This document shows, piece after piece, positions 46,959 through 62,742 of a DNA stretch of 64,000 nucleotides. Origin of the DNA: Sphingopyxis sp. USTB-05 (lineage in GTDB: Bacteria; Pseudomonadota; Alphaproteobacteria; Sphingomonadales; Sphingomonadaceae); NCBI RefSeq assembly GCF_023822045.1, contig NZ_CP084712.1, positions 2,294,001-2,358,000 on the forward strand. Reading direction: 5' to 3'. Position 1 is the stretch's first letter, and the number at the start of each line of letters is the position of its first letter. Both the position numbers and the translations under genes were made by a program. The notes below the pieces were generated by a model. That model searched no databases, was not told the DNA's origin, and was given only the letters and a program-made list of their open reading frames with translations.

Positions 46959-46982
46959 GACGATGTCCTTTGCTGCATGTCG

Positions 46983-47000
46983 GGCCGCACCAGCGCGGCC
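46983..47000 (-). promoter_or_regulatory. Leader hairpin before DUF736 copy 2
   Basis: GGCCGC-ACCAGC-GCGGCC forms a 6-bp stem. In the RNA the loop reads GCUGGU. It ends 24 nt before the start codon. Similar stem-loops with UGGU in the loop precede the genes at 47998 (18 nt) and 49339 (20 nt). Confidence 0.45.
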
Positions 47001-47239
47001 TCGATGCGCATCGACAGCCGGCACGGGAGCGCGCCGCAGCCGCCAGGCCCGGAGCGAAGCGGAGGACGGCGGGCCGAGGCTTTCTTGGCTCGCGAGGAAC
47101 GGCGGAACGCCGGGGGAAGAAAGTCGCAGGCCCGCGGTTGCGGCCAGCGATCCAGCGTCAGCGGCTTGCCGGCAGATGGCGCAGATCGGAGGCCGGGCTG
47201 GTGCGAGATGCTGCGAGGCTTCGACGCGAGATCAGTCTT

Positions 47240-47707: not shown

Positions 47708-47833
47708 GGGCGTCCTCCTGTCGGACGCGCTCTCCACCACCACCGCAGCGCAATCTGCCTCGCGGGCATAGCGAAATCGCCCCGAAGGTGAAACCGGAAC
47801 CGGGTCCACCCTGGAGCGAAATCCCGCGCGATA

Positions 47834-47998
47834 TCAGCGGTTGAACGGGTCATATTCGCAGACGATGCAAGCGGGGTCGCCGTCGAACTCGTCGAGCGGC
47901 ATGACCGAATATCCAGCCGATGTTTCAACGAGGACGATGATCGTCATCATCGTGCGGGCGAGATTCCAGCCAAGCGATTGGGCGGTTGAAAGCGGCAT
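47834..47998 (-). CDS. 54-aa hypothetical protein with hairpin leader
   Basis: A small gene starting at the ATG at 47998 with CAGGAG 7 bases upstream. The product has one hydrophobic stretch (MMTIIVLVETSAGYSV) and an acidic C-terminus with two cysteines (DGDPACIVCEYD), a CxxC that could bind metal. No family recognised. The good ribosome site and a hairpin leader shared with two DUF736 genes support it as real. Confidence 0.6.
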   Translation of the reverse strand: MPLSTAQSLGWNLARTMMTIIVLVETSAGYSVMPLDEFDGDPACIVCEYDPFNR

Positions 47999-48016
47999 AT
48001 CGAGGCTCCTGTCGGG

Positions 48017-48035
48017 GAGCGGGACCATCCCGCTC
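48017..48035 (-). promoter_or_regulatory. Leader hairpin before the 54-aa gene
   Basis: GAGCGGGACCATCCCGCTC has 7-bp arms and an ACCAT loop (AUGGU in the RNA), ending 18 nt before the ATG at 47998. It is the closest match to the hairpin before DUF736 copy 3 at 49360-49374. Confidence 0.5.
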
Positions 48036-48250
48036 GACAGTCGCCCCGCCGGACGGGGACAGGCCGCAATCACCGCAGCGAAGCGAAGGCCCAAGCGCAG
48101 CGCCGGGACCCCTTGCGGGTTGATTGAAGGAGGCCGGTCCTCGGCCCAGGGATCAGCGGCTATTCGAGAGCGGGTGGGGCCGCTTCCGGGCCGGAGACAT
48201 GGCGCTGATCGAGCGTCGGTTTGCAGGATTACGCGTCGATGACGGAAATC

Positions 48251-48670
48251 TCATCTGCTCCAGGGATCGACGATCTCGATACCGCAATGTTCGAAATCCC
48301 GGCTGTTTCGCGTCGCCAGAATAGCTCCCCGCGAACGGGCGATCGCGGCGATCTGGGCGTCAAACTGGCTTATCGGGCGCCCCATGCCACGGCGTGCCGC
48401 TGCGATTTCGGCAAATGCCGTCGCTGCGTCGCCGTCGAATGCCAGGAGGCGACCGGAAAAATCCTCGGAGAACGTCAAGAGTGCGGCGGCTGCCAGTTCG
48501 TCGCGCCGCCGACCTTTGTCAAGAATTGCGATACCGTAGAGAATTTCCGCCTGGGTGACCGTCGTCACGAAGAGCGACGAAGCAGCTTGCCGCCCGATCC
48601 AGTCGAGAACCCGCGGCTCAGGCGCGGCCCGCAAGACTTCGGATAATATATTGGTGTCGAGGAGGATCAT
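48251..48670 (-). CDS. PIN-domain toxin ribonuclease (VapC/FitB-like)
   Basis: A 139-aa PIN-domain protein with the acidic residues in place: Asp5 in MILLDTNILSE, Glu42 in TQAEILYGIA, Asp104 in QFDAQIAAIA and the TRNSRDF end. FitB/VapC toxins are Mg-dependent RNases. It is encoded directly after, and overlapping by 4 bp, a FitA-like antitoxin gene. The pair would stabilise the element. Confidence 0.92.
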   Translation of the reverse strand: MILLDTNILSEVLRAAPEPRVLDWIGRQAASSLFVTTVTQAEILYGIAILDKGRRRDELAAAALLTFSEDFSGRLLAFDGDAATAFAEIAAARRGMGRPISQFDAQIAAIARSRGAILATRNSRDFEHCGIEIVDPWSR

Positions 48671-48912
48671 GAGAGATCGATGGGCTCGCGCGTGTCCTCG
48701 CGTGGCGCAATGTCGAGTTCGATGCCGCCGAGCGGCGCGAAGCGCGCGCGAATGGCCGCCGCGAGATTGCCCATCGGCGCATCGTCGGTAGAAAGCGCCG
48801 AGCGGAGGATGTCGCGCACCTCTTCTTCCATCGAACGGCCATGCGCTGCCGCCTGCAGCCGCAGCCGGCGCTTCAGCGCGTCGTCGATGCCCCTGATCGT
48901 CATGCTGCCCAT
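48667..48912 (-). CDS. FitA/VapB-like ribbon-helix-helix antitoxin
   Basis: An 81-aa antitoxin. SMTIRGIDDALKRRLRLQAA is the ribbon-helix-helix, HGRSMEEEVRDILRSAL the second helix region, and the C-terminal tail the likely toxin-binding part. ATG at 48912 with AGGAG upstream; an in-frame ATG at 48903 is an alternative. It neutralises the PIN-domain protein of the next gene and probably represses its own operon through the repeats at 48941-48972. Confidence 0.9.
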   Translation of the reverse strand: MGSMTIRGIDDALKRRLRLQAAAHGRSMEEEVRDILRSALSTDDAPMGNLAAAIRARFAPLGGIELDIAPREDTREPIDLS

Positions 48913-48940
48913 GTCGCGTCTCCTTGAGCGTAGATATTAG

Positions 48941-48972
48941 TCATTGACTGCAAAACAATCAATGACTGCAAA
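48941..48972. promoter_or_regulatory. Candidate antitoxin operator: direct and inverted repeat
   Basis: TCATTGACTGCAAA (48941-48954) recurs as TCAATGACTGCAAA (48959-48972). The TCATTGA/TCAATGA parts also form an inverted repeat. It starts 29 bp upstream of the antitoxin ATG in an AT-rich patch, as expected for FitAB/VapBC self-repression. Confidence 0.6.
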
Positions 48973-48978
48973 GGAAAG

Positions 48979-49006
48979 TGCGGCCCCGCTCGAAGGCGGA
49001 GCCGCA
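48979..49006 (-). terminator. Intrinsic terminator after DUF736 copy 3
   Basis: In the minus-strand transcript an 11-bp stem (TGCGGCTCCGC pairing with GCGGGGCCGCA, one G-U pair) with a 6-base loop begins 6 bp after the DUF736 stop and is followed by CTTTCCTTT. Confidence 0.7.
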
Positions 49007-49012
49007 ATGCTG

Positions 49013-49339
49013 TCAGTTGCCGGGGGCGTTCCAGATCAGCACCTTCTTCGAGGGATCGTCGCCCGGCGCGTTCGCGACATTGCAGAAGATCTCGCCGAGT
49101 TCGGGGGCCGACAGCGACACCGAGATATATTCGGCGCCGGTCGAGCGCGCGGTTTTCGTCCAGCCGCCGCCGAGTTCGAAGCCGTTCCGGCGGCTGACCA
49201 CGCGGAAGTCGGGCTCGCTTTCCTTCATCTTGCGGCCGTTCGGAACGATCGCGATCGGCACGGTGACCATCAAGGTCGCGAGCGTGCCCTCGTAGCTTCC
49301 GTCGTCCTTGAGGGTCAGATTTCCAATGGTGGTACCCAT
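49013..49339 (-). CDS. DUF736 family protein (copy 3)
   Basis: About 108 aa from the ATG at 49339 (AAAGGAG upstream): MGTTIGNLTLKDDGSYEGTL, ELGGGWTKTARSTGAEYISV and the sequence LIWNAPGN at the end. It is the most diverged of the three DUF736 copies here. A stand-alone unit with hairpins upstream (49360-49374, 49429-49445) and a terminator at 48979-49006. Function unknown. Confidence 0.88.
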   Translation of the reverse strand: MGTTIGNLTLKDDGSYEGTLATLMVTVPIAIVPNGRKMKESEPDFRVVSRRNGFELGGGWTKTARSTGAEYISVSLSAPELGEIFCNVANAPGDDPSKKVLIWNAPGN

Positions 49340-49359
49340 GTTCAGTCTCCTTTGATGCT

Positions 49360-49757: not shown

Positions 49758-49772
49758 GAACAAAGAAGGAAC
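49758..49772. promoter_or_regulatory. SOS (LexA) box upstream of imuA
   Basis: GAACAAAGAAGGAAC is GAAC-N7-GAAC, the reverse complement of the alphaproteobacterial LexA site GTTC-N7-GTTC. It ends 31 bp before the imuA ATG. imuA-imuB-dnaE2 cassettes are classic SOS-regulated genes, so this match is very likely functional. Confidence 0.85.
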
Positions 49773-49803
49773 ATAAGACCAGCTTACCGAGTTATCCGCA
49801 CCT

Positions 49804-50535
49804 ATGCGCCAGTCCGTCGTTCTTGAAGATATTCGCGCCAAAATTGCGCAAATCGAAGGCGTTGGCGCGCGTCATGACGTCATTCCGTTCGGGATCGATG
49901 ATCTCGACTCGCGAATCCCGGCGCGCGGAATCGCGACGGGCGCGCTCCACGAGCTCGCCGGCAGCCCCGAACTGGCCGACGATGCGAGCGCCACGATCTT
50001 CCTCGCCGGCATCCTCGCGCGGAGCGACGGCCCGGTTTTCTGGTGCCTGCGCTGGCGCGATCTCTTCGCCCCCGCGCTTCATCTAGCCGGACTGCATCCC
50101 GACCGGCTCATTCATGTCGAAGCGGGCAGCGACACCAACGTCCTCCTCGCGATGGAGGAGTGCCTCCGCCATCCGGGGCTCGCCGGGGTCGTCGGCGAGG
50201 TCAAGAAGTACAGCACCACCGCGTCGAAGCGGCTGCAGCTCGCCGCCGAAGCCTCGGGCGTCCCCGCCTTCATCTTCCGCCGGGCCTGCAAGGCCGGCGA
50301 GCCTGCCGAAGGCAGCGCCGCTTTGACCCGCTGGCGCATCACCGCGAGTCCGACCGAGGATCTCGGCATCCCCGCGATCGGACGCGCGCGCTGGCGCGTC
50401 GCGCTCGAGCGCGCGCGCGGGGGCAATCCCTACAACTGGATCGTGGAGGGCTGCGATGCGACGGGTCGTATCGCTCTTCCTGCCGCACTGGTCGACCGAC
50501 CGGCTGCGCAGGAAGATGCGCAAGCCGCAGCCTGA
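49804..50535 (+). CDS. imuA: ImuA, accessory protein of the mutagenesis cassette
   Basis: A 243-aa RecA/SulA-related protein. PARGIATGALHELAGSPELA and GPVFWCLRWRDLFAPALHLA fit the ImuA fold, and no intact Walker A is visible, as usual for ImuA. It works with ImuB and DnaE2 in translesion synthesis and damage-induced mutagenesis. It is the first gene after an SOS box at 49758. Its last 80 bp overlap the start of imuB in another frame, so the two are probably coupled. Confidence 0.92.
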   Translation: MRQSVVLEDIRAKIAQIEGVGARHDVIPFGIDDLDSRIPARGIATGALHELAGSPELADDASATIFLAGILARSDGPVFWCLRWRDLFAPALHLAGLHPDRLIHVEAGSDTNVLLAMEECLRHPGLAGVVGEVKKYSTTASKRLQLAAEASGVPAFIFRRACKAGEPAEGSAALTRWRITASPTEDLGIPAIGRARWRVALERARGGNPYNWIVEGCDATGRIALPAALVDRPAAQEDAQAAA

Positions 50536-52003
50536 CGGCAGCGCCCCGCCCCGCCCGCTCGTTACCGCGATTCCCGACCATGGCCGGCGTATCGTCGCGG
50601 CGACGTGCCGCGAGGCGCAAATGCTTGGCATCCAGACAGGCATGACGATCACGAAAGCGCGGGCTTTCGCGCCCGAGCTGGATGTCGTCGACGCCGAGCC
50701 CGAGGCTGATCTCGACGGGTTGCGTCGCCTCGCCCTCTGGGCAGGTGCACGCTATTCGCCGGTTGTCGCGCCTGATCCGCCCGACGGGCTCTGGCTCGAC
50801 ATCACGGGCTGCGCGGCCATCTTCAGCAGCGAGCGAGCCTTGCTCAAGGATCTTCACCGCCGCGTCGCGGCCTTCGGTCTCAGCCTGCAAATTGCGGTCG
50901 CGGACACGGCCGGCTGCGCGCATGCGGCCGCCCGCCATGTCCCCGCCGGGCGGCCTGTCACGGTTGAACCCGGAGCGCACCGTAAGGCGATCGCGCTCCT
51001 ACCCGTCTCAGCGCTCCGCCTGCCGTCCGCCGATGTCGAAGGCCTTCGCAAATTGGGCTTCGAGCGGATCGAGCAGCTGATCGGGAGCCCACGCGGTCCG
51101 CTCGCGAAACGGTTCGGGCGCGAACTGCATCGCCGGCTCGACCAGGCACTCGGCACGCTGCCGGAGCCGATCGAACCGCTCTTCCCCGAAGAGCTGCCGC
51201 AGGCGAGGCGCGGCTTCATGGAGCCGCTCGCGACGGCGGACGCCTTGGCGCAGGTGATCGGCGACCTTGCGCACGATATCGCGGGCCAGCTCAACCGCGC
51301 GGGAACGGGCGCGCGGCGCCTCGACTGCTATTTCCACCGCGTCGACGGGCAGACGCAGGCCATCCGTGTCGGAACCGCCTCGCCCTCGCGCGATCCCCGG
51401 CATCTTGCGAAGCTGCTCGCCGCGCGGATCGAGAGCATCGATCCCGGTCTCGGGATCGAGGCGATGACCCTCGTCGCCGCGCTCGCCGAGCGGCAGCCAG
51501 GGAGCCAGGCCGACGCGCTCGAAAATATCGGACGGCGCGGACCCGATCTTCCCGCGCTGGTCGACACGCTCGCCAATCGCTTCGGGCAGCGCGCGCTCCA
51601 GCGCGCGGCGCCGCGACCGAGCGCGATGCCCGAGCGCTCGGTTGCTGCCCTCCCCGCGCTCGCGCCCGAGACAGGCGAGAGCTGGAGCGACTGGCCGCGG
51701 CCGTCGCGCATGCTAGCGCGGCCCGAACCAGTCGATGTCGTCGCCTTGCTCCCCGACGATGCGCCGCGCCTCTTCATCTGGCGCCGTAAACGCTACCGGG
51801 TCACCCAAGGCGATGGACCCGAGCGGCTCCAAGGCGAATGGTGGCGCGAGGGCGGGATCGAAGGCGAAACCCACCTCACCGTCCGCGACTATTATCAGGT
51901 CGAGACCGAGACGGGCGGCCGTTACTGGCTCTTCCGCCTCGGCGACGGGGTCAATCCCGCAACCGGTTCGATGCGCTGGTTTATTCACGGAGCATTCGCT
52001 TGA
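50456..52003 (+). CDS. imuB: ImuB, Y-family polymerase-like protein
   Basis: A 515-aa Y-family homologue. The N-terminus MRRVVSLFLPHWSTDRLRRK lacks the catalytic acidic residues of DinB. LWLDITGCAAIFSSERAL and VADTAGCAHAAARHV fit the palm/fingers, and LPSADVEGLRKLGFERIEQL the thumb helix-hairpin-helix. A little-finger domain and the ImuB C-terminal tail (GEWWREGGIEGETHLTVRDY) follow. ImuB scaffolds DnaE2 and the beta clamp without polymerase activity of its own. It overlaps imuA by 80 bp, and its stop lies in a 33-bp tandem repeat. Confidence 0.93.
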   Translation: MRRVVSLFLPHWSTDRLRRKMRKPQPDGSAPPRPLVTAIPDHGRRIVAATCREAQMLGIQTGMTITKARAFAPELDVVDAEPEADLDGLRRLALWAGARYSPVVAPDPPDGLWLDITGCAAIFSSERALLKDLHRRVAAFGLSLQIAVADTAGCAHAAARHVPAGRPVTVEPGAHRKAIALLPVSALRLPSADVEGLRKLGFERIEQLIGSPRGPLAKRFGRELHRRLDQALGTLPEPIEPLFPEELPQARRGFMEPLATADALAQVIGDLAHDIAGQLNRAGTGARRLDCYFHRVDGQTQAIRVGTASPSRDPRHLAKLLAARIESIDPGLGIEAMTLVAALAERQPGSQADALENIGRRGPDLPALVDTLANRFGQRALQRAAPRPSAMPERSVAALPALAPETGESWSDWPRPSRMLARPEPVDVVALLPDDAPRLFIWRRKRYRVTQGDGPERLQGEWWREGGIEGETHLTVRDYYQVETETGGRYWLFRLGDGVNPATGSMRWFIHGAFA

Positions 52004-52057
52004 GAATGCGACCGGTAGCGAACCGCATTCGCTTGAGACTGCCACCGGTGTTTAACT
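51992..52057. repeat. Two 33-bp tandem repeats at the imuB-dnaE2 junction
   Basis: Two direct copies begin GCATTCGCTTGAGA at 51992 and 52025, with a third degenerate unit (GCATTTGCGTGATG) at 52058. Copy 1 contains the imuB stop codon TGA; the third unit runs into the region of the dnaE2 start. Cores ACCGGT are also shared by the first two. Confidence 0.75.
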
Positions 52058-52097
52058 GCATTTGCGTGATGCGGCCATCAAGCAGCGTTGCTTTCGC

Positions 52098-55000
52098 ATG
52101 ACCGATGACGGGGCGGCCTATATCGAGCTGCAGGTCACGACGCATTTCAGCTTCCTGCGCGGGGCCTCGTCGCCCGAGGAGCTCTTCACCGCCGCTGCCA
52201 TGCTCGGACTGCCCGCGCTCGGCGTCGCCGACCGGCACAGCGTCGCCGGGATCGTGCGCGCGTGGGACGCCGAGAAGGTTACCGGCGTTCGCGCGTTGAC
52301 CGGCACGCGCCTCAATCTTGCCGATGGCACGGCACTTCTCGTCTATCCAACCGACAAGATGGCCTATGGGCGGATGTGCCGGCTGCTCAGCGTCGGAAAG
52401 ACGCGCGCCGGCAAGGGCGCCTGCCATCTCGACTGGCCCGATCTCGAGGACTGGAACGAGGGTCTGCTTGCGATCCTGCTTCCCGACCGCGCCGATGGCG
52501 CAGCCGAGGCGGCGATCGCCCGCGCCAGTCGCATCTTCGGCGATCGCCTCTATCTCGCACTCACGATCCGGCGCCGCCCCGGCGACGCGATCAGGCTGCG
52601 CGATCTCGCAGCCTTGGCCGCCAAAGCGAAAGTGCCGACGCTCGCAACGGGCGACGTCCTCTATCACATGCCCGACCGGCGCCTGCTGCAGGATGTCGTC
52701 ACCTGCATCCGGGAGAAATGCACGATCGACGAGCTTGGTGATCGCCGCGAGCGCTTCGCCGACCGCCACATCAAGACGGCGGCCGAGATGGAGCGCCTGT
52801 TCCGCCGCTACCTCAAGGACAGCTCGCCGGTCGCCCGCACGGTCGATTTCGCGGCGCGCTGCACCTTCAGTCTCGAAGAACTGCGTTACCAATATCCCGA
52901 CGAGATCCAGGTTCCTGGACGCACCCCGCAGGAGGAGCTTGAGCGGCTGACATGGGAGAAGGCTCCCGTCCGCTACCCCGAAGGCGTCAGCACCGAGGTC
53001 CGCACTCAGCTCGAGCATGAGCTGCGATTGATCGGAGAACTCGATTACGCCCCCTATTTCCTGACGGTTCACTCGATCGTCGCCGAAGCCCGCCGCCGCG
53101 AGATTCTCTGCCAAGGCCGCGGCAGCGCGGCGAACAGCGCGGTCTGTTACGTCCTTGGTATCACTTCGATCGATCCGGTGCGGTCCGAACTCCTGTTCGA
53201 ACGCTTCGTCAGCGCCGAGCGCCGGGAGCCGCCCGATATCGATGTCGACTTCGAGCATGAGCGGCGCGAGGAAATCATCCAGTGGATCTACGAGACCTAT
53301 GGCCGGACCCGCAGCGCGCTGACCGCAGTCGTCACGCGTTATCGTTCGCGCGGCGCCGTCCGCGAAGTCGGCAAGGCGCTCGGGCTTAGCGAAGACATCA
53401 CCGCGGGGCTCGCCGGCGCGGTCTGGGGTTACAGCCGCGAGGGCGTCGAGGAAAAGCATGCCGAAGCGCTGAACCTCGACCTCGGGGACAAGCGCCTCGC
53501 GCTGACGCTCGAGCTCGCGCGCACGCTCATCAACACGCCCCGCCACCTTTCGCAGCACCCCGGCGGCTTCGTGCTGACGCGCGACCGGCTAGACGAACTC
53601 GTGCCAATCGAGCCCGCCGCGATGGAAGACCGGCAGGTCATCGAATGGGACAAGGACGACATCGACGCCCTCGGTTTCATGAAGGTCGACATCCTTGCTT
53701 TGGGGATGCTGAGCTGCATGCGCCGTGCCTTCGAATTCCTGCACGATCACAAAGGACTGAAGCACGATCTTTCCACCATTCCCGCGGAAGATCCCGCGAC
53801 CTATGCGATGATCCGCAAAGCCGACACGCTGGGCGTTTTCCAGATCGAGAGCCGCGCCCAGATGGCGTCGATCCCGCTCATGGCGCCGCGCACCTTCTAC
53901 GATCTCGTCATTCAGGTCGCGATCGTCCGGCCGGGCCCGATCCAGGGCGACATGGTCCATCCCTATCGCCGCCGCCGAAACGGACAGGAGGAGGTGACTT
54001 ACCCGACCCCCGAACTCAGGCGCGTGCTTGAGAAGACGCTGGGGGTCCCGCTCTTCCAAGAGCAGGCGATGCGCGTCGCGATCGAATGCGCCGGCTTCAC
54101 CCCGAGCGAGGCCGATCTCCTCCGCCGCGCGATGGCGACCTTCAAACTCACCGGCGGGGTCAGCCATTTCCGCGACAAGCTGATCGATGGCATGGTCGGC
54201 CGCGGCTACGACCGCGAGTTTGCCGAAAAGACCTTCAAGCAGATCGAGGGTTTCGGCTCCTACGGCTTTCCCGAAAGCCACGCCGCGAGCTTCGCGCTCA
54301 TCGCCTATGCCTCGTCGTGGATGAAATGCCATCATCCCGACGCATTCTGCGCCGCGCTGCTCAACGCCCAGCCGATGGGTTTTTACGCGCCCGCGCAGAT
54401 CGTCCGCGATGCCCGCAATCATGGCGTCGAGATCAGGCCCATCGATGTCAATCACAGCCGCTGGGACTGCACACTCGAAGAAGCGGCCAACGGCAAATAT
54501 CATGCGGTGCGCCTGGGTCTGCGCATGGTCCGCGGTCTCGCCAATGAGGATGGCGCCGCGGTCGCCACGGCCCGTGCCGGCGAGCCCTATAGCAGCGCCG
54601 AGGAAATCCAGCGCCGCGCCGGGGTCGGGCGCGGCGCGCTCGACCGGATCGGCGACGCGGACGGCTTCGCCTCGCTCGGAAGCTCGCGCCGGGAAGGGCT
54701 ATGGGAAGTGAAGGGCCTCGGACCTGCCGCCCTTCCCCTCTTTCAGGCTGCCGACGAACGCGCCGGACGTCTCCAGCGCGAAGCGCTGGAACCCGAAACG
54801 CTGCTCGCGCCGATGGGCGAAGGCGCCGAGGTCGTCGAGGACTATAGAGCGTCCGGTCTGTCACTCAGGGCCCATCCCCTCGCCTTCCTGCGCGACGAGC
54901 TTCGCTCGCGAAAGATCATCACGTGCCGGGAGCTTCACGGCATCAAGGACGGCCGCTGGGTCAACCTCGCCGGGGTCGTTCTCGTCCGCCAGAAGCCGGG

Positions 55001-55418
55001 CTCGGCAAAGGGCGTCATGTTCATCACCCTCGAAGACGAGACCGAGGTCGCGAACCTCGTCGTGTGGACCAATGTCTTCGAGAAATATCGCCCCGTGGTC
55101 CTCGGCGCCGCGATGATGGGTGTGCGCGGTCAGGTTCAGCGCGAGGGCGAGGTCATCCATATCGTCGCGCAAAGGCTCGACGACCTCTCCCCGCTGCTCG
55201 CGAGCGTCGGGCAGCGCAAGGACATCGCCGATATCTACAAGGTAGGCCGCGCCGACGTCGTCAAGAGCCCCGTGGGTCCCGACCCGCGCGATCCGGAGAC
55301 GAAGCCGCTCGGCCGCAATCCGCGCGACATCTATATTCCCGACCTCCGCCTCGGGTCCGGTATCATTCCCGGCCAACCCACCGAGGGCATCAAGATCAAG
55401 CCACGGGATTTCCGTTAG
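52098..55418 (+). CDS. dnaE2: DnaE2, error-prone DNA polymerase III alpha subunit
   Basis: About 1106 aa from the ATG at 52098; an in-frame TTG at 52062 would add 12 residues, and neither has a clear ribosome site. An N-terminal PHP domain ([20 protein letters not shown]) and catalytic palm stretches [17 protein letters not shown] and [16 protein letters not shown] (catalytic Asp residues) are visible. [40 protein letters not shown] and a C-terminal OB-fold ([20 protein letters not shown]) follow. Length and order match DnaE2/ImuC. It does the mutagenic synthesis of the ImuA-ImuB-DnaE2 mutasome. Confidence 0.95.
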
Positions 55419-55531
55419 CTTTCAAATGGCAGGCGGCGGAACTCGACATGGTTTCAGGGGTCTAGATCATGAGGGGCCAGCGCATGCCCCGCCAAGGTCG
55501 GCCAGGCACGCAACCAAATGGAGTGATGCCG

Positions 55532-55975
55532 ATGAACCGCCTGATGATCCTTCCCCTCGCAGCCGCAACCGCCATGGTAAGTGCCTGCGCCTCCACAGGC
55601 AGCAGCTACGCCTATGACGACGGCGGCTATGGCTATTATGATCGTGCCTATTACGACCAATATGGCCGCTACGACTATGACCGCCCCGATCCGCGCTACA
55701 GCGGCTATTATGCGGAGAATTACTATCGCAACGACCGACGCTATCGCGAACGCCGCCTCAACGACAACGACCGGATCTATCGCGGCCGCGACAATAAATA
55801 TTACTGCCGCCGAAACGACGGGTCGACCGGACTGATCGTCGGCGGGATCGCCGGCGGCGTGCTCGGTAACGTCATCGCCGACGGCAGGTCGGAAACGCTG
55901 GGCACCGTGATCGGTGCCATCGGCGGCGCAGCCGTCGGGCGCGAAATCGATCGCAGCAATGTGCGCTGCCGATAG
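55532..55975 (+). CDS. Glycine-zipper 2TM lipoprotein
   Basis: About 147 aa from the ATG at 55532 (GGAG 8 bases upstream). A lipoprotein signal with lipobox VSAC (MILPLAAATAMVSACAST) is followed by a Tyr/Asp/Arg-rich low-complexity stretch and a C-terminal glycine zipper (LIVGGIAGGVLGNVIADG, TVIGAIGGAAVGREI) as in the 17-kDa surface antigen family. Probably outer-membrane anchored with a structural or envelope-stress role. A terminator follows at 56063-56093. Confidence 0.88.
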   Translation: MNRLMILPLAAATAMVSACASTGSSYAYDDGGYGYYDRAYYDQYGRYDYDRPDPRYSGYYAENYYRNDRRYRERRLNDNDRIYRGRDNKYYCRRNDGSTGLIVGGIAGGVLGNVIADGRSETLGTVIGAIGGAAVGREIDRSNVRCR

Positions 55976-56062
55976 TCGCAAAATAATCGACGGCCGTTGG
56001 AACGATCTGGCGGTCAGCGCGTATCTACTTTGCAAGCTCGGGTCTCAGGACCCGACTTCAGG

Positions 56063-56093
56063 AAAGCCCCGCAGCCTTGTGCAGCGGGGCTTT
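56063..56093 (+). terminator. Intrinsic terminator after the glycine-zipper lipoprotein
   Basis: AAAGCCCCGC (56063-56072) pairs perfectly with GCGGGGCTTT (56084-56093) around an 11-base loop, followed by ACCTTTTT. It lies 88 bp after the lipoprotein stop. Confidence 0.85.
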
Positions 56094-56240
56094 ACCTTTT
56101 TGGGCGTCGGATGCGCCCCACTTCCAACTTTGTTAACGCTCGGGGTCTAGGCTGAGCGTGCGGGATTTCAGGAGGTTCGGCCGTCCGCAGGTGGAACCGG
56201 TCCTCCCGGTGGGCGGTAATTCTCGGCAAGGAGCTGAGCG

Positions 56241-57365
56241 ATGTCGACCCCGGTCAAATATTCACCCGATGCGATCGAGATCGAGCTGATCCGAAGTCTC
56301 TACGATGGCCTGCTGCCCTCGCTCGTGATGTCGCTCGGCTTTCTCATCTGCGGGGCGCTGATCATCGAACAATCGGGCGACATGCTGATCGCGGGACCCT
56401 ATGCGATCGGCGTCCTCGCCTCGATCGCCCGGCTCCTCGTCGCCTCGTGCGACGCAGCTGCCGCGGATAATCCCGCGATCACACTCGGTGAGGCCCGCCG
56501 GCTCGAGCGCCGCTATGCGGCGAGCTATATCGTCTTTGCAGCCATGCTCGGCTTCTTCGCGGCGCGCGCGCTTGCCCTCCCCGATCCAGCCATCGACAAG
56601 CTCGCGATCTGTCTCGTCATCGGCTATGCGGCGGGCGTCGCGGCGGGGACGAGCCTTCGCCCGCGCATCGCCATCGCCGCGCTCCTTCTCGCCGTCATGC
56701 CGCCGGTCGTCACGATGCTCGTTGCCGGAAAGCCACTCCACATCGCGACCGCGCTGATGACCGCCGCTTTCCTAGCGGGCGGTATCTTCAGCTTGCGCAA
56801 ACGACACGCCCGCGCCCTCGACGACATTGGCCGGCGGCTCACCTTCGCCTCGCTCGCGCGAAGCGACGGGCTCACGGACTTGCCCAACCGGCTGGCGCTG
56901 CGCGAATGGTTCGACCGCCATGTACGCGCCGCTAAGCTCCGCCCGATCGCACTACACTGCCTCGACCTCAACGGCTTCAAACCTGTGAACGACAGCTTCG
57001 GCCATCCCGTCGGCGACGCGTTGCTCACCGCGGTCGCGAGAAGAATTTCGGGAACCTTGCGCGAAGGCGACATTGCCGCGCGGCTGGGAGGCGACGAGTT
57101 CGTGATCATCCAGCTTCAGATCGGCAATCCTGACGAGGCCTATATGCTCGCGGAACGCGTCGCAGCCTCGATCGCGCGTCCCTTTGCCGTCGGAAGCCAT
57201 GATATCCGCGTCTCGGCGTCGATCGGTTACATCGTCTGCGACGACCTGTCGCGCGACCTTGAACAACTGATCAGCCTCGCCGACGAGGCGCTCTACACCG
57301 CAAAGCGAAGCGGCCGCGGCATATGCCGATATCAGGACGCTGCCGAGGTACAGGCAGCGGCTTAA
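56241..57365 (+). CDS. Membrane diguanylate cyclase (GGDEF)
   Basis: A 374-aa protein with about six membrane helices in the first ~185 residues (LVMSLGFLICGALIIEQSGD, AASYIVFAAMLGFFAARALA, IAIAALLLAVMPPVVTMLVA), then a GGDEF domain. The active-site motif is exact (Gly283-Phe287, RLGGDEFVII), and an RxxD product-inhibition site (REGD) sits 5 residues before it. It should make c-di-GMP and be feedback-inhibited. ATG at 56241 with AAGGAG upstream. The N-terminal membrane part is probably a MASE-type sensor. Confidence 0.93.
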   Translation: MSTPVKYSPDAIEIELIRSLYDGLLPSLVMSLGFLICGALIIEQSGDMLIAGPYAIGVLASIARLLVASCDAAAADNPAITLGEARRLERRYAASYIVFAAMLGFFAARALALPDPAIDKLAICLVIGYAAGVAAGTSLRPRIAIAALLLAVMPPVVTMLVAGKPLHIATALMTAAFLAGGIFSLRKRHARALDDIGRRLTFASLARSDGLTDLPNRLALREWFDRHVRAAKLRPIALHCLDLNGFKPVNDSFGHPVGDALLTAVARRISGTLREGDIAARLGGDEFVIIQLQIGNPDEAYMLAERVAASIARPFAVGSHDIRVSASIGYIVCDDLSRDLEQLISLADEALYTAKRSGRGICRYQDAAEVQAAA

Positions 57366-57432
57366 AAACGGCCAGGGAGCAGCAACATCCGTTCACGTCG
57401 CGCGTTGGTGCTGCGAGGGGGATCGAGGATGA

Positions 57433-57930
57433 ATGATGCCCCGTATTCTATTGCTCATGACGTCCGTCCTCGCAATCGGTGCCGCCACCCTTTCGCTCCA
57501 GTCCTGCGGCAGCGAACCGGTTGAGGCCGCACCGCCGGAAGCAGCGACGAGCGCGCTCGTCACGCTTCCCGATGGATCGACGATGGCGGCAGCATCCGGA
57601 TCGCTCACGCGCGAGATGGCCGATTGGCTTGCATCGCGCGATGGCCAAAGCGAGACATTCACTTTTCATGGCTTCGACGAAGACAGGCCCAAATTGACGA
57701 GCATCGGTCTCGGCCGAGCCGCGGACCTCGCCACCGTCCTTCGCGCGGCTCCGGCCGCGACGATCGAAATCGCCGGCGACGAAGCCCAGATCAGCCTCCT
57801 CGCCCATTTGCTCGAGGATCGCGGCATCGCATCCGAACGGATGAAGATCGTCCCGGCGGCCGGGATCGGAACGGCGATGCTGACGCTCCATCGCGGCTCC
57901 ATGTCTCCGCTGATGACGGCAAAGTCCTGA
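57433..57930 (+). CDS. Putative exported lipoprotein
   Basis: A 165-aa protein with a lipoprotein-like signal: hydrophobic ILLLMTSVLAIGAATLSL, then LQSC as lipobox and an Ala/Glu/Pro-rich linker. The rest (TFTFHGFDEDRPKLTSIGLG, IEIAGDEAQISLLAHLLEDR) has the alternating strand-helix pattern and NxxL/RA stretches of an OmpA-like or BON-like domain, but I cannot assign a family. ATG at 57433 or 57436. It follows the diguanylate cyclase by 67 bp; function unknown. Confidence 0.7.
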   Translation: MMPRILLLMTSVLAIGAATLSLQSCGSEPVEAAPPEAATSALVTLPDGSTMAAASGSLTREMADWLASRDGQSETFTFHGFDEDRPKLTSIGLGRAADLATVLRAAPAATIEIAGDEAQISLLAHLLEDRGIASERMKIVPAAGIGTAMLTLHRGSMSPLMTAKS

Positions 57931-57958
57931 ACCTCTATGAGGTGAATGAAGGCCAGCT

Positions 57959-58372
57959 TTAGCCTGCCAAGTCCTCGAACCACCGCGCGTAGGGCGTGTT
58001 GACTGCCATATGCCGGTTATAGTCCGGGGCTCCATCGTCCCACCACACCGGTCCGCGCTCGCCAAGCGCGCGTTTCGACCGATCGATCGCCGAGCGGGCC
58101 CGCCGAAGCGCGACGCCATCCCTTGCTGCGAGCGCCGTTCGCACGTTCCGCCGGGCAGTCATTAGTTCGGAAACAAGTCGCTCGCGCTGGCCAGGCTCAA
58201 GCGCCGGGTTCGACATACGCCAAAGGCGGCCGCGAATGACGAAATAGCGGCCGTCGGGGGTGACTTGGATTGTGTCGGGCCGCTGCTCAGACACGGCCGA
58301 AAAAGGAAGGCGATATAGTCGTGTGCCGGCGACCGAGGGGTTTGTGATCGCCGGCACCCGTGAGGATGGCAA
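57959..58372 (-). CDS. Conserved hypothetical protein
   Basis: A 137-aa cytoplasmic protein. TIQVTPDGRYFVIRGRLWRM and the C-terminal GPVWWDDGAPDYNRHMAVNT, YARWFEDLAG are strongly conserved-looking stretches that I have seen in sphingomonad and rhizobial hypothetical proteins. No catalytic motif is evident. The middle is a charged helix. The start may be internal (the first ~30 residues look less conserved). Convergent with the lipoprotein gene at 57433. Confidence 0.78.
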   Translation of the reverse strand: MPSSRVPAITNPSVAGTRLYRLPFSAVSEQRPDTIQVTPDGRYFVIRGRLWRMSNPALEPGQRERLVSELMTARRNVRTALAARDGVALRRARSAIDRSKRALGERGPVWWDDGAPDYNRHMAVNTPYARWFEDLAG

Positions 58373-58400
58373 AGTCGGAAACTTCGGCCATCCCGGAAAC

Positions 58401-58571
58401 TCAGGGCAATGTGCGGCGTCCGCGCCCGAATACGAAGGCGACGATGAAGAGGACGACGCCGATCACGAGCAAGATCTTGGCGAAGTCGGCCGAAAGGCCG
58501 GCGATGCCGCCGAAGCCGAGAAGCGCCGCGACGAGCGCGACGACGGCAAAGATGATAGCCCATCTGAACAT
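58401..58571 (-). CDS. DUF1328 (YtjA-like) small membrane protein
   Basis: A 56-aa protein with two membrane helices: [40 protein letters not shown] and [11 protein letters not shown]. These match the DUF1328/YtjA family of small stress-related membrane proteins. The gene is short but has the full family length. An EcfG-type promoter sequence lies about 100 bp upstream (58670-58694), which supports stress induction. Confidence 0.92.
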
Positions 58572-58939
58572 GATAAATCTCCCGTCTGGACGCAGTCCGC
58601 CAGTCGCCCGACCGCGTGAGCGGGGGACGGTGAAAGCTGCGCCGATTCATCCGTGGTGGATGTCCGGGTAACGCTGGCTCGTTTAGAAAGTTCCGCGCCG
58701 AGCGCGCCTCCGCATCCCCGGAATAACCTGTGTTAATCCGAAAAATTTTCTCGGGAACGCTTGCCGTCGTCGGCGCGTCATTCGGGGTTGAGAGCGCCAC
58801 TCCGCTCAACCGGCGAAAGAGGTATCGAAGGCAAGGTGCCGACAGAATCGCGGCACAGACAGGCGCAGATTGCTGCGCCTTCTGGGCCGGGCCGCAGCTC
58901 CCGCGCGGCCCGGCTTCGCGAGCGCAGACACAGGAGACC
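58572..58939. other. Divergent intergenic region between DUF1328 and DUF3606 genes
   Basis: 368 bp without a supported gene. It contains a good EcfG-type promoter on the minus strand (58670-58694) and a weaker plus-strand look-alike (GGAAC at 58754, 17-bp spacer, CGTC at 58776). GC-rich inverted sequences lie near 58880-58920 just before the DUF3606 ribosome site. Confidence 0.5.
58670..58694 (-). promoter_or_regulatory. EcfG (general stress sigma) type promoter
   Basis: On the minus strand GGAAC (58694-58690), a 16-bp spacer and CGTT (58673-58670) match the alphaproteobacterial EcfG consensus GGAAC-N16/17-CGTT exactly. It lies about 100 bp upstream of the DUF1328 start codon and reads toward it. 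Confidence 0.7.
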
Positions 58940-59125
58940 ATGATGGCGGATGACAAGAGACTGACGGGCGCCTCCGATCGCGATCGGATCAGCCTTTCCG
59001 AAGATTATGAGATCCGCGATTGGAGCGAGAGCCTCGGCGTGGGCGAAGAAGAACTTCGCGAGGCTGTCGATGCTGTCGGAAACAGCGCGGACGCGGTCCG
59101 CGCCTATCTGAACCACGGCCGATGA
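58940..59125 (+). CDS. DUF3606 domain protein
   Basis: A 61-aa protein from the ATG at 58940 with AGGAGACC upstream. RISLSEDYEIRDWSESLGVG and EELREAVDAVGNSADAVRAY match the DUF3606 family of small soluble proteins, common in Alphaproteobacteria and often stress-induced. The stop overlaps the next gene (ATGA). Function unknown. Confidence 0.85.
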   Translation: MMADDKRLTGASDRDRISLSEDYEIRDWSESLGVGEEELREAVDAVGNSADAVRAYLNHGR

Positions 59126-59388
59126 CTCGGGACACTGCAGCAACGGCTCCGGTCGAGCGGATAGCCAGGGTCCTTGCCGGACATGAGCTCAGCCGGAACG
59201 GCGAAGGCGAACTGCGGTCGGCGGCCGATGCCGTCGACATGCTCTGGCCGGAGTATACCGCCGCGGCGCTCGCTATCCTCAAGACGATGCGGGAGCCGAG
59301 CGGGCGCATGCTGGCAGTCGGGGATGCCGGGGTGTGGGAAAGAATGATCACCGCGGCGATCGAGGACGAGACGATCTCCGAGAGCTGA
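59122..59388 (+). CDS. Hypothetical protein, coupled to DUF3606 gene
   Basis: An 88-aa soluble helical protein (VERIARVLAGHELSRNGEGE, ADAVDMLWPEYTAAALAILK). No family I can name with confidence. The ATG at 59122 overlaps the DUF3606 stop by 4 bp, which argues for a real, translationally coupled gene. Confidence 0.7.
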   Translation: MTRDTAATAPVERIARVLAGHELSRNGEGELRSAADAVDMLWPEYTAAALAILKTMREPSGRMLAVGDAGVWERMITAAIEDETISES

Positions 59389-59431
59389 TCGTTCAGCCAC
59401 GCGACACGAGGCCGGTGGTAAAGCCGCCGAT

Positions 59432-60052
59432 ATGCCTCTCACCACCGATCTCCCTTGGGAGCAACTCGCGATCTATGCGGCTGGCGCCGCGCTCGTCTTG
59501 ATCCTGCTGTTCAAGATCCCCTATGTCGGCCGCGTGCTGCGCGGCCTCTTCTCCTTCGCGCTTCTCGCCTTCGCGATCTTCCTCATTCTTCAGCACGCCC
59601 CCTTCGATCCGAACCTCGGCCGCCTCACCGCGGCGATTGGTCTCGATCGACAGCAGGTCGTCGGCAGCGAGGTGCGCATTCCCATGGCGCGCGACGGACA
59701 TTTCTGGGTCGATGCCGAAATCAATGGCGTTAAGCGAAGGATGCTCGTCGACAGCGGCGCCACCGTGACCGCGCTATCGCAGGAGACCGCCCGCGCAGCC
59801 GGGGTCGAGGCCGATGCAACGCTGCTGCCGCTCCTGATGCAGACCGCGAACGGGACGGTGCGGGCCGAGGCCGGAACGGTCGATGCGCTCGCGGTCGGCG
59901 CCATCGAGGTACAGCGGCTGAAGGTCGTGATCTCACCCGCTCTCGGCAATACGGATGTGCTCGGCATGAATTTCCTGTCGCAGCTCGCCGCCTGGCGCGT
60001 CGAGGGCCGCACGCTCTTCCTTGTTCCTCAACCCGCCGACGTCGACCCCTGA
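59432..60052 (+). CDS. Membrane-anchored retropepsin-like aspartic protease (clan AA)
   Basis: A 206-aa protein. Two N-terminal membrane helices (LAIYAAGAALVLILLFKIPY; LFSFALLAFAIFLILQHAPF) are followed by a retroviral-type protease fold. The catalytic motif is LVDSGATVTALS, and the conserved end is NTDVLGMNFLSQLAAWRVEG. This matches the TIGR02281/PerP-like clan AA group in Alphaproteobacteria, thought to act in the periplasm as a dimer. Substrate unknown. Confidence 0.9.
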   Translation: MPLTTDLPWEQLAIYAAGAALVLILLFKIPYVGRVLRGLFSFALLAFAIFLILQHAPFDPNLGRLTAAIGLDRQQVVGSEVRIPMARDGHFWVDAEINGVKRRMLVDSGATVTALSQETARAAGVEADATLLPLLMQTANGTVRAEAGTVDALAVGAIEVQRLKVVISPALGNTDVLGMNFLSQLAAWRVEGRTLFLVPQPADVDP

Positions 60053-60076
60053 TAGACACGGCACGGATTCGCCTTT

Positions 60077-60091
60077 GTTCCATTTTTGTTC
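60077..60091. promoter_or_regulatory. SOS (LexA) box upstream of the SRAP/AlkB operon
   Basis: GTTCCATTTTTGTTC is an exact GTTC-N7-GTTC, the alphaproteobacterial LexA site. It lies 37 bp upstream of the ATG at 60128, the first gene of a five-gene run containing two SRAP genes and an alkB-like gene. Confidence 0.82.
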
Positions 60092-60127
60092 TATGTTCCG
60101 TGACCGACTCGCAACGAAAGACCGGCC

Positions 60128-60571
60128 ATGGGTGACGTAATCCCGTTCGACAGATCCGAAGGTGACGACCGCATCGGCGGCCATGCTGCCGCCAATGATT
60201 TTTTCGCACCCGGCGGTTTTCTCGCCGCGATCAATGCGGTCCATATCACCGGCGCGCATCTCGCGCGCGCGATCGAGACGATCCGGCATCTTGTGGTGAA
60301 GAGCCCGAGCGACATTGCGGAGCATGGCCGTCTGCTTGAGCGCTTCGCGCGCGAGCAGGGACTCGGTGATCACGGCGGCGCCGCGCTCCACGCGCGCGCA
60401 ATCGCCCTCGATCGCTGGGCGCAGGAATTCGACCCGTTCGGCGAGAGCGACATCAGCGGCTTCTACGCCGCCGGCGGCAGCGCCCCGCTCGTCGAAACCG
60501 AGATCGGTCTCGGATTCGAGCCGGCGAGCTTTGCGGAACAAGTCCAAAAATGGACGAAGATTTTCGCCTGA
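60128..60571 (+). CDS. Hypothetical protein, first gene of an SOS-box operon
   Basis: A 147-aa soluble helical protein (MGDVIPFDRSEGDDRIGGHA, RAIETIRHLVVKSPSDIAEH, LHARAIALDRWAQEFDPFGE). I recognise no family. The exact SOS box 37 bp upstream, and the SRAP genes that follow 10 bp later, suggest a DNA-damage role. No membrane segment or signal peptide. Confidence 0.78.
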   Translation: MGDVIPFDRSEGDDRIGGHAAANDFFAPGGFLAAINAVHITGAHLARAIETIRHLVVKSPSDIAEHGRLLERFAREQGLGDHGGAALHARAIALDRWAQEFDPFGESDISGFYAAGGSAPLVETEIGLGFEPASFAEQVQKWTKIFA

Positions 60572-60581
60572 AGCCCGAGAG

Positions 60582-61241
60582 ATGAGCCGCCTCTACACCC
60601 TTGCCGCCACGGCTTCGGACGTCGCCGATCATTTCGGCGCCGGCGGCTTTACCGATATCGCCGTTCCCTCGGAGACGATCGAGGCCCTCCCCGGCCTCGT
60701 CGTCCACGAAACGAACGGCCGGCGGCACCTTCGCCAGATGCTCTGGGGCTTCCCGCGCCTCACCCGCGAGATGCGGCTGCGCGGCGATCCGCCGGGCCGC
60801 ATCGGCCTCGTCGCCGATCTCACCAACCCGATGTGGGAAGGTCTCGTCGTCGAGCCCCGCTATCGCTGCCTCATTCCGCTGACGCACTTCGCGAACCCCA
60901 ACGGCTCGCCCGGCGAGAAGACACGCAGTTGGTTCTCTGCCGAAGGCCAGCCGATCATGGCCTGGGCGGGCTTCGCCAAGAACACCCCCGAATTGGGTCC
61001 CGTTTACGCCGGCATGACGATGGACGCGAACGAGCTCGTGCATCCCACCAACGATCGCATGCCCGTCCTCCTCATGCCCCATGAATATGAACGCTGGCTC
61101 CACGGCTCGATCAAGGATGTCATCGGCTTCCAGTTTCGTCCGCCACCGCCCGCAGAAAATTTTGTCGCCGAGCATACCGACGATCTTTGGCGCAGCGGCA
61201 AATTGCCGCCGAGCGCGCGGCCCCAGCAAGCGCTGCTCTAG
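60582..61241 (+). CDS. SRAP (YedK/HMCES) family protein lacking the catalytic residues
   Basis: A 219-aa SRAP-domain protein from the ATG at 60582. The fold is clear: QMLWGFPRLT, YRCLIPLTHFANP, IMAWAGFAKN and DRMPVLLMPHEYERWL. The active site is not intact. Position 2 is Ser (MSRLY) instead of the Cys that forms the thiazolidine link to abasic DNA. The usual Glu after RCLIP is Asn105, and the His before DRMP is Asn157. It cannot form the normal crosslink. It sits immediately before an intact paralogue, so it may have a structural or regulatory role. Confidence 0.88.
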   Translation: MSRLYTLAATASDVADHFGAGGFTDIAVPSETIEALPGLVVHETNGRRHLRQMLWGFPRLTREMRLRGDPPGRIGLVADLTNPMWEGLVVEPRYRCLIPLTHFANPNGSPGEKTRSWFSAEGQPIMAWAGFAKNTPELGPVYAGMTMDANELVHPTNDRMPVLLMPHEYERWLHGSIKDVIGFQFRPPPPAENFVAEHTDDLWRSGKLPPSARPQQALL

Positions 61242-61301
61242 CAGAGCGCCGTTTCCCCCCATGCCCTTCCTTCCCGGCTCGATGCTGATAGACTGACGTC
61301 C

Positions 61302-61976
61302 ATGTGCAATCTCTACACCGAGCGCAAAAGCGCGGCCGAGGTTGCGGCGCATTTCGGCGTCGACCTCCCCGTACCGGCGTTCAACAGCGCCGAGGATGTG
61401 TATCCCGGCTATTCGGGCATGGTCGTCCGCGAAGAGCAGGGAAAGCGCGTCCTGCGCTCGATGACCTGGGGTTTTCCGCGCCACTCCAAAAGCAAGAAGA
61501 CGGGCCTGCCTAACAAGCCGAGCCCGACGAACAACGCACGCGACGATCAGCTCTTCAATCCTTATGGTATGTGGAGCCAATGGTTTGCCCAGCCGGCGCA
61601 TCGCTGCCTGATCCCGTTCACCGCCTTTGCCGAAGCCGTCGGCGAAAAAGGCGCAATGACGAAGACCTGGGTCAGCGTCACCGATCAGCCGCTTGCGGCC
61701 TGGGCGGGACTATGGCGCCCCACCGACGAATGGGGCGACGCCTATACCGGCGTGATGGTGGACGCGACCGAGGAACTGCTCGATATCCACGACCGCATGC
61801 CGGTGATCCTCCGTCCCGAAGATCATGAGACTTGGCTGCACGCGCCCGCCGACGAAGCATTCGGGCTCGTGCGCAAATATCCGGGCGACCGCCTCGTTGC
61901 CGAGCATAGCAACGACCCCTGGAGCAACCGCGGCAGGACGTCGCCCCCGCTCCCCGATATGCCGACCCTGCTCTGA
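61302..61976 (+). CDS. SRAP (YedK/HMCES) family abasic-site crosslinking protein
   Basis: A 224-aa SRAP protein with all catalytic residues: Cys2 (MCNLYTERKS), the NNAR stretch (residues 77-80), Glu111 in RCLIPFTAFAEA and His163 in HDRMPVIL. It should form a DNA-protein crosslink with abasic sites in single-stranded DNA after self-removal of Met1. It follows a degenerate paralogue in the same SOS-box operon, and its stop shares a base with the next gene's start. Confidence 0.93.
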   Translation: MCNLYTERKSAAEVAAHFGVDLPVPAFNSAEDVYPGYSGMVVREEQGKRVLRSMTWGFPRHSKSKKTGLPNKPSPTNNARDDQLFNPYGMWSQWFAQPAHRCLIPFTAFAEAVGEKGAMTKTWVSVTDQPLAAWAGLWRPTDEWGDAYTGVMVDATEELLDIHDRMPVILRPEDHETWLHAPADEAFGLVRKYPGDRLVAEHSNDPWSNRGRTSPPLPDMPTLL

Positions 61977-62155
61977 TGCTCACCGAAGACCGCCATCTCT
62001 GGGCCTGCGCCCTCGCCGTCGAAAAGCAGCATGGAGCGGGCGCACCGCGCTTCGTCGCAGCGCGCATCGGTGCGCTCGCGCTCGCGGGGGATAATGCGGG
62101 CGTCGAGCGCTGGAAAGCGATCGCGGCGAAGCTGAACGCACTCGCAAGGACATGA
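61976..62155 (+). CDS. 59-aa conserved small protein (DUF6961-like)
   Basis: A 59-aa helical protein: LTEDRHLWACALAVEKQHGA, RFVAARIGALALAGDNAGVE, WKAIAAKLNAL. The pattern resembles the small DUF6961-type proteins of sphingomonads, though I cannot verify this. Its start shares one base with the SRAP stop, and its stop overlaps the alkB-like start by 4 bp. It is therefore embedded in the operon and likely real. Confidence 0.72.
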   Translation: MLTEDRHLWACALAVEKQHGAGAPRFVAARIGALALAGDNAGVERWKAIAAKLNALART

Positions 62156-62742
62156 AACACAACCCTGTCAGCAAAAGTGCCGCGGCGCAGGCCGATCTGT
62201 TTGGCCGTGCACTGCTTCCCGGTCTCGAAGCGGCCGAAGCCTTCGTCACGGAAGCCGAGGAAGCGGCGCTCATAGCCCATATCGAACATGCTGGGCTCGA
62301 GGCCTTCAAATTCCAGCAATGGGAGGGCAAACGCCTCACCCGCTCATTCGGATGGAGCTATGATTTCCAGACGGGGGTTTTCGCACGCGCCGCGCCGATC
62401 CCCGACTGGCTCGCGCCGATCGCCGCTCGCGCCGAGCGTTTTTCAGAACTTCCGCCGGGCGCCCTCGCGCAGGCGCTGCTGATTTCATACGGCCCCGGGG
62501 CCGGCATCGGCTGGCATAAAGACCGGCCCGTCTTCGAGCATGTCGTCGGCATTTCGCTGGGAGCAGAGGCGGCGATGCGCTTCCGGCGCCGCCGAGGAGA
62601 CAAGTTCGACCGCTTTGCACTGCCGCTCGCGCCCCGCTCGATCTATCGTTTCACCGGCGAAGCGCGGCACGCGTGGGAACATAGCATCGCGCCGATCGAG
62701 ACGGCGCGCTGGTCGATCACCTTCCGCAGCCTCGCGAGTTGA
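62152..62742 (+). CDS. AlkB-type 2-oxoglutarate/Fe(II) dioxygenase
   Basis: A 196-aa AlkB-family demethylase. The iron ligands His122 and Asp124 are in GIGWHKDRPVFEHV and His177 in RHAWEHSI; the 2-oxoglutarate Arg186 is in ARWSITFRSL. Upstream RSFGWSYDFQTG fits the nucleotide-recognition lid. It should reverse N-alkyl damage in DNA or RNA by oxidative demethylation. Last gene of the SOS-box operon, overlapping the small gene by 4 bp. Confidence 0.93.
   Translation: MKHNPVSKSAAAQADLFGRALLPGLEAAEAFVTEAEEAALIAHIEHAGLEAFKFQQWEGKRLTRSFGWSYDFQTGVFARAAPIPDWLAPIAARAERFSELPPGALAQALLISYGPGAGIGWHKDRPVFEHVVGISLGAEAAMRFRRRRGDKFDRFALPLAPRSIYRFTGEARHAWEHSIAPIETARWSITFRSLAS

Follow-up and report, generated by a model that had tools for sequence, protein, structure and literature searches.

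The ImuA-ImuB-DnaE2 cassette is a known arrangement of three genes preceded by a LexA-type box, and SRAP genes standing beside imuB, imuA and dnaE2 have already been described in a report that calls the SRAP cysteine absolutely conserved (PMC3765255). In the SRAP protein YedK, a relative of HMCES, catalysis involves Cys2, Glu105 and His160, with Asn75 nearby (PMC9436759). An imuABC cassette located on the symbiotic plasmid pRalta moves with this conjugative plasmid and raises mutation in the recipient (PMC4151985). In Sphingopyxis granuli TFA, imuABdnaE2 and a SRAP-alkB pair are co-induced, and their gene numbers lie close together (PMC6472365). The locus described here belongs to Sphingopyxis sp. 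USTB-05 and lies in a stretch of 64,000 nucleotides (the window; contig NZ_CP084712.1, positions 2,294,001 to 2,358,000), where an imuA-imuB-dnaE2 operon and a second, five-gene operon are each preceded by a LexA-type box. The three cassette genes look ordinary; the difference from the known cassette is the added pair of SRAP proteins and the AlkB-type enzyme in the second operon. The main point, missed in the original prediction made on this DNA, is that the two SRAPs differ, one of them being disarmed as judged from its residues:

60582..61241, plus strand: SRAP1, pseudo-SRAP lacking each of the four active-site residues (PF02586, 46.7 bits, cut-off 27.1)
61302..61976, plus strand: SRAP2, with intact Cys2, Asn, Glu and His (PF02586, 102.9 bits)

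When aligned to YedK, SRAP2 reads C-N-E-H (state CNEHR) and has all four active-site residues, whereas SRAP1 has the Pfam domain, above the cut-off, and reads S-L-N-N: Cys2 is replaced by Ser2, Glu105 by Asn and His160 by Asn, and the Asn75 column holds Leu or Ile depending on the alignment. These replacements are shared by its relatives. Among the best 120 of 664 SRAP1 homologues, position 2 was never Cys (100 Ser, 7 Thr, 6 Ala, 1 Pro, 6 gaps), Glu was replaced by Asn in 120/120 and His by Asn in 119/120, evidencing a pocket remodelled to fixed residues (Asn, Asn) in which the Arg is retained. Of 193 different SRAPs, 103 had the state CNEHR and 65 SLNNR. The proposal that both SRAPs shield abasic sites is not supported, given that SRAP1 lacks the equivalents of Cys2, Asn75, Glu105 and His160. 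The existence of a conserved SRAP subfamily devoid of catalytic residues runs counter to what has been published on the cysteine, and the sections of PMC3765255 that deal with SRAP-polymerase neighbours describe neither a disarmed subfamily nor a live-dead pair; no paper found in the literature searched names such a subfamily. Automatic labels can be misleading here, as a SRAP1-type gene on a Sphingopyxis fribergensis plasmid bears the Gene Ontology term for covalent protein-DNA crosslinking.

Phylogenetically, SRAP1 is placed by its sequence in a conserved alphaproteobacterial subfamily of disarmed proteins. Trees were made by a quick method on reduced sets (95 rows from the 193, and 125 rows including 75 of 120 relatives of a Reyranella protein). 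In the 95-row tree, 36 disarmed proteins constitute one side of a branch (support 99) and adjoin the Reyranella protein, which reads CLQN. In the 125-row tree, 39 rows of fully disarmed proteins come out as one set (support 100), with one long-branch row outside. The relatives of the Reyranella protein (best 120 of 818) read CLENR (30), CLQNR (26), SLQNR (20), CNEHR (20), SLENR (6) and other states (18). The minimum numbers of changes on the 125-row tree were 2 for Asn75, 2 for His160, 4 for Glu105 and 10 for Cys2. One reading of these counts is that Leu and Asn mark the subfamily and that the cysteine was lost many times; as the trees carry no inferred root, the order of the residue losses is likewise a reading.

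SRAP1 is under strong purifying selection. The ratio of nonsynonymous to synonymous substitution rates (dN/dS) ranged from 0.03 to 0.12 for comparisons with six Sphingopyxis copies and was 0.17 for that of a seventh genome (G117), and it was below the SRAP2 value in 7/7 Sphingopyxis comparisons, which take in non-orthologous SRAP2 partners in G135 and G117. In addition, 52 columns are invariant among 28 homologues.

The neighbours of SRAP1 were analyzed in 80 related loci, namely the best 80 of 95 confirmed loci, taken from titled genome records (near-copies included), in stretches of up to 8 kb on each side, some of which end at contig ends. A SRAP with Cys2 was present in 75/80 loci, and in 51 of those 75 it was found at most 150 bp downstream of SRAP1 on the same strand; start codons of the fetched genes were chosen by a script, so that at least one Cys2 SRAP (in locus L107) was probably missed. 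In one Sphingopyxis relative (G156) the SRAP1 and SRAP2 frames continue as one open frame. Genes for ImuA, ImuB or DnaE2 occurred in 46/80 loci, and the order imuA-imuB-dnaE2-SRAP1-SRAP2 was found in 16 loci, each from a record with a rhizobial title, as well as in one conjugative Agrobacterium plasmid. A dnaE2-SRAP1-SRAP2 array like those of rhizobia was noticed in a record titled Erwinia oleae (L160), a gammaproteobacterium by its title, reflecting either transfer or contamination.

Other arrangements were also observed around active SRAPs. In loci L061-L064 and L009 a second, different type of degenerate SRAP-like protein precedes the active SRAP, and a LexA-type box stands further upstream; the one such protein tested matched the Pfam SRAP profile at E 0.001, under the cut-off. 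In several loci related to these a small Cys-rich protein is located between the box and the SRAP.

The operons and their boxes are listed below; the original prediction of two exact LexA-type boxes before them was confirmed, with gaps of 31 bp between the first box and the imuA ATG and of 36 bp between the second and the ATG of the gene for the 147-residue protein:

49758..49772, plus strand: LexA-type box before imuA, exact GAAC-N7-GAAC, GAACAAAGAAGGAAC
49804..50535, plus strand: imuA (ImuA_translesion, E 5.9e-16; 58.9 bits, under its cut-off of 150)
50456..52003, plus strand: imuB, Y-family polymerase-like subunit (PF00817, PF11799, PF20114)
52098..55418, plus strand: dnaE2, error-prone polymerase (NF004225, 1358 bits, cut-off 939)
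60077..60091, minus strand: LexA-type box before the five-gene operon, exact, GAACAAAAATGGAAC; boxes stand at the same place in relatives
60128..60571, plus strand: 147-residue protein, mostly helical model (31 homologues listed; AlphaFold2 mean predicted local distance difference test, pLDDT, 84.7)
61976..62155, plus strand: 59-residue DUF6961 protein (PF22284, E 3.2e-16)
62152..62742, plus strand: AlkB-type 2-oxoglutarate-Fe(II) dioxygenase (PF13532, E 1.8e-17, 64.7 bits, cut-off 31.2)

Five exact boxes were counted in the window against a mean of 1.40 in shuffled sequence (0/100 shuffles reached 5). With about 1.4 expected by chance, a box by itself counts as weak evidence, and the case rests on position, conservation and the lexA control. 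A profile search returned one LexA-domain match in the genome, with an exact box (GTTCCACTATCGTTC) just upstream of its start, and both island boxes share the form of this lexA box. Genome-wide, 122 boxes were found vs 74 for the backward control pattern. Of the relatives whose fetched stretch includes a close imuA, 7/7 have a box before it, 5 of them with the same letters, and box position is kept while the genes diverge: for instance, the box of the 147-residue protein gene is present in G135 and G117 at 54 and 56% protein identity, respectively. In the wider sample, 47/80 loci had a box at most 300 bp upstream of the start of the SRAP1 operon (background about 0.0094 per 300 bp); among the remaining 33, a boxed imuA was co-directional in 16 and divergent in 5. 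As the 80 loci are mutually related, these counts do not represent independent events.

The closest thing to a joint-induction test is the transcriptome of S. granuli TFA under anaerobic growth, and not under a tested damaging agent. In that dataset lexA and recA were up 6-fold each, imuABdnaE2 (genes 3201-3199) 11-12-fold, SRAP and alkB (genes 3204-3205) 8-10-fold and further SRAP proteins (genes 2555-2550) 8-10-fold (PMC6472365). The parts of that paper concerned with these genes give no residue analysis of the SRAPs. Altogether, the conserved boxes and this joint induction back the earlier proposal of joint SOS control, and LexA control of both operons is likely.

A candidate sliding-clamp motif was noticed at the C-terminus of SRAP1 proteins. 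The published clamp consensus consists of Q, an aliphatic residue (L/I/V/A), any residue, L/M and F/L (PMC13254535). It was matched by 48/120 C-termini of SRAP1 homologues in strict form and by 84/120 in a lax form allowing Met and Ile, vs a mean of 0.07/120 matches when the last 20 residues were shuffled. Among the tails from genome loci, 24/78 matched strictly and 34/78 laxly. Controls gave 4/74 for SRAP2 proteins, 4/120 for the relatives of the Reyranella protein and 0/39 for other Cys2 SRAPs; a looser tail pattern gave 97/120, 34/78 and 6/76. A clamp tether of SRAP1 is treated as a lead. The AlkB of the window contains QADLF at residues 13-17, and 14/28 different AlkB proteins carry the consensus within their first 40 residues, DLF near the N-terminus being common in this list.

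Based on the available evidence, we consider it rather probable that the two SRAPs are an SOS-induced accessory pair of the mutasome, in which SRAP2 would cap abasic sites and SRAP1 would act without crosslinking, perhaps tethered to the clamp. RecA filaments would promote LexA cleavage and expression of both operons, as suggested by the boxes and the transcriptome of the relative. SRAP2, judging from its residues, would covalently cap abasic sites in single-stranded DNA through Cys2. No such chemistry is expected of SRAP1, for which a non-covalent job at the same place seems most likely: it might hold the lesion or SRAP2 and hand the site over to the mutasome, in many relatives perhaps acting through a C-terminal sliding-clamp motif. 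A binding-only SRAP1 is plausible because SRAP active-site mutants show less crosslinking with DNA binding undisrupted (PMC9436759). The core of the second operon would then be the pair of active and disarmed SRAPs, to which AlkB is frequently added in sphingomonads. The module resides on a chromosomal segment with conjugation genes alongside, the exchange of which is shown by sequence identity, its route being conjectural. The genes, boxes, residues, selection, pairing and exchange are shown by the data; LexA repression, capping by SRAP2, the non-covalent role of SRAP1, the clamp contact and any effect on mutation are steps that we infer. A broader version of this proposal is offered tentatively: the live-dead pair may be a dedicated component of the SOS mutasome in Alphaproteobacteria. 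In this version SRAP1 would have been disarmed in steps (Asn75 and His160 before Glu105 and, repeatedly, Cys2); at the sliding clamp it might reversibly hold either abasic sites or the crosslink of SRAP to DNA, and decide between capping by the active SRAP and copying by ImuB-DnaE2. The disarmed SRAP provides a testable handle on the balance between abasic-site capping and error-prone bypass in bacteria.

Other explanations for SRAP1 were weighed. It could be a protein-protein subunit of the mutasome that interacts with ImuB or DnaE2 and has given up binding to DNA or abasic sites, in line with the 46/80 loci with imu genes and with a 2026 survey that puts forward SRAP-like proteins as subunits regulating UmuC-like Y-family polymerases (PMC12926913); this is doubtful, as the pocket is fixed (Asn, Asn, Arg kept) rather than freed and imu genes are missing from the fetched stretch in the rest of the loci. 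The retention of a weak chemistry, with the Ser2 amine forming a Schiff base and acting as an abasic-site lyase, is improbable: YedK C2A and C2S are trapped as Schiff bases and C2A has lyase activity, but the lyase of C2A E105Q is about 25 times slower than that of C2A (0.002 vs 0.05; PMC9436759), and SRAP1 is without the equivalents of both Glu105 and His160. That SRAP1 is a decaying, functionless duplicate is scarcely credible. All four active-site residues have been lost and the copies of two Sphingobium loci (L166, L167) look frame-broken, SRAP1 seeming to be split into two frames; decay is nevertheless already contradicted by the low dN/dS against the seven Sphingopyxis copies, below SRAP2 throughout, and by the invariant columns.

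Several observations weigh against the accessory pair. No imu gene was present in the fetched stretch in 34/80 SRAP1 loci (some of these stretches reach contig ends), no box was found by the rule used in 12/80, and AlkB was near SRAP1 in a minority of loci (24/80, all with sphingomonad titles). Among the Sphingopyxis genomes, G148 and G136 have a close imuA without a close SRAP1, and G129 and G133 show the reverse. The SRAP2 of the window groups with eight SRAPs from other genomes, of which seven belong to the same genus (support 97), and not with the usual SRAP2s; it stands apart from the SRAP2s paired with SRAP1 elsewhere, so that a fixed heterodimer is not implied, and from this grouping a swap of the active partner seems to have occurred. 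The dN/dS of SRAP1 reached 0.12, 0.26 and 0.24 against three more distant sphingomonads, at dS >1. Regarding the clamp, 44/78 tails from genome loci fail even the lax form and the window tail, QQALL, is outside the published consensus. The structure model of SRAP1 (mean pLDDT 47.4) is too poor for use.

SRAP2 (61302-61976) was also seen to group with SRAPs of other SOS-boxed loci. In G129, where no close imuA was found, window position 28753 is joined to 57444; imuA-imuB-dnaE2 is gone there and the SRAP operon is kept.

The original prediction also held that the island may travel as cargo of a conjugative element, based on the genes found beside imuA:

26708..49345, minus strand: conjugation segment beside imuA (AlpA, DUF2274, Trb-type secretion genes, TraG, DUF3363, S26 peptidase, PIN, DUF736)

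Its conjugation genes encode TrbI, CagX/TrbG, VirB8, TrbL, CagE/TrbE, a T2SSE/VirB11-type ATPase, the TraG coupling protein and DUF3363, so that relaxase, coupling protein and type IV secretion genes are present (the DUF3363 match is strong, the Relaxase profile itself being under its cut-off). The island is not part of the conserved chromosome of all relatives, as a close SRAP1 (at least 80%) and a close imuA (at least 77%) were each found in 12/60 genomes of the genus; in island-less genomes keeping the cox genes, the match begins at about 65.9 kb and the cluster does not adjoin. Identity at the lexA locus to G141, G132, G151 and G156 is 77-79% (77 for G141, 78 for G132, 79 for G156), and long matches of a 4.0-Mb core piece to the same genomes reach 77-85%. 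The cluster and its surroundings, in contrast, match G156 at 94.7-97.4% identity between 49210 and 134161 in window coordinates, the right part lying outside the window. Against G141, main pieces that start at 30156 and reach at least 121365 are 90.9-95.9% identical, with a weaker 80.7% at 26718-30156; against G132, main pieces between 26569 and 109518 are 90.8-99.9% identical, dropping to 81.8 and 85.3% in weaker stretches. For the cluster alone, identity is 99.5% to G125 (lexA locus 85%) and 99.0% to G151, and imuA and imuB have zero synonymous differences (dS 0) to those of G132. Left of the cluster, identity to G156 drops to 80-86%, with 75-76% over the trb remnant of that genome. A segment of such high identity in genomes with a lexA locus and core at 77-85% points to recent exchange between several species; exchange of a chromosomal segment of at least 85 kb between Sphingopyxis species is supported by these comparisons, and the island is an example of damage-tolerance machinery moving between species.

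It is very improbable that the cluster is ordinary, vertically inherited chromosome with conjugation genes nearby by chance. No tyrosine integrase (PF00589) was found within about 150 kb, a search that covered this recombinase family, nor any tRNA in the window or at the right edge, nor a clear repeat between the segment edges, and G117 shares the trb-imu order at 76.6% identity, much as with the cox genes (76.5%); the identities of mostly 91-99.9% to G156, G141 and G132, the dS of 0 and the relatives borne on plasmids speak against it. Among 72,556 plasmid records, 30 carried SRAP1 relatives (E up to 1e-40), of which 17 were conjugative, 3 mobilizable and 10 neither, and ImuB relatives occurred in 487 records, 278 of them conjugative (E up to 1e-60). 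Hence, of the cargo proposal, the transfer of the region and the occurrence of relatives on conjugative plasmids stand, with conjugation as the presumed route. Compared with pRalta, the carrier here is a chromosomal segment with the SRAP pair and AlkB, and neither SRAP nor DUF159 is mentioned in PMC4151985.

Most of the conjugation genes standing beside imuA are absent from G156 and G151. The same junction (28833 joined to 49210) occurs in G156, G151 and G135, which show very different divergence, about 20.4 kb of conjugation genes being gone; in G156, DUF736 and TrbG continue as one open frame at that point. The exchanged segment also contains a photolyase-like gene (L201:3818-5191, about 126.5 kb in window coordinates; NF007955, E 7.7e-82, under the cut-off). 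Inside the TraG frame there are two more exact GAAC-N7-GAAC boxes on the minus strand (39674-39688 and 39715-39729).

As for the remaining genes of the island, order and families of imuA, imuB and dnaE2 match the known cassette, ImuA being under its own NCBIfam cut-off. The 147-residue protein had no Pfam or NCBIfam match, its model gave no clear match in a fold search, and no convincing match was found in the other 98/99 genomes of the family. AlkB proteins are characterized by the residue motifs HxD and RxSxTFR. Both are visible in the translation of the window AlkB and were found in an identical relative (L095); the score against the AlkB equivalog NF011930 was 22 of 267 bits, far under the cut-off. 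The HU gene reported after AlkB is present in the window and is not a stable member of the island, as it does not adjoin AlkB in G117 and G135. The two operons lie about 4.7 kb apart, with further genes (lipoprotein-like, GGDEF, aspartic protease and others) in between, and a longer frame of dnaE2 with a TTG start begins at 52062.

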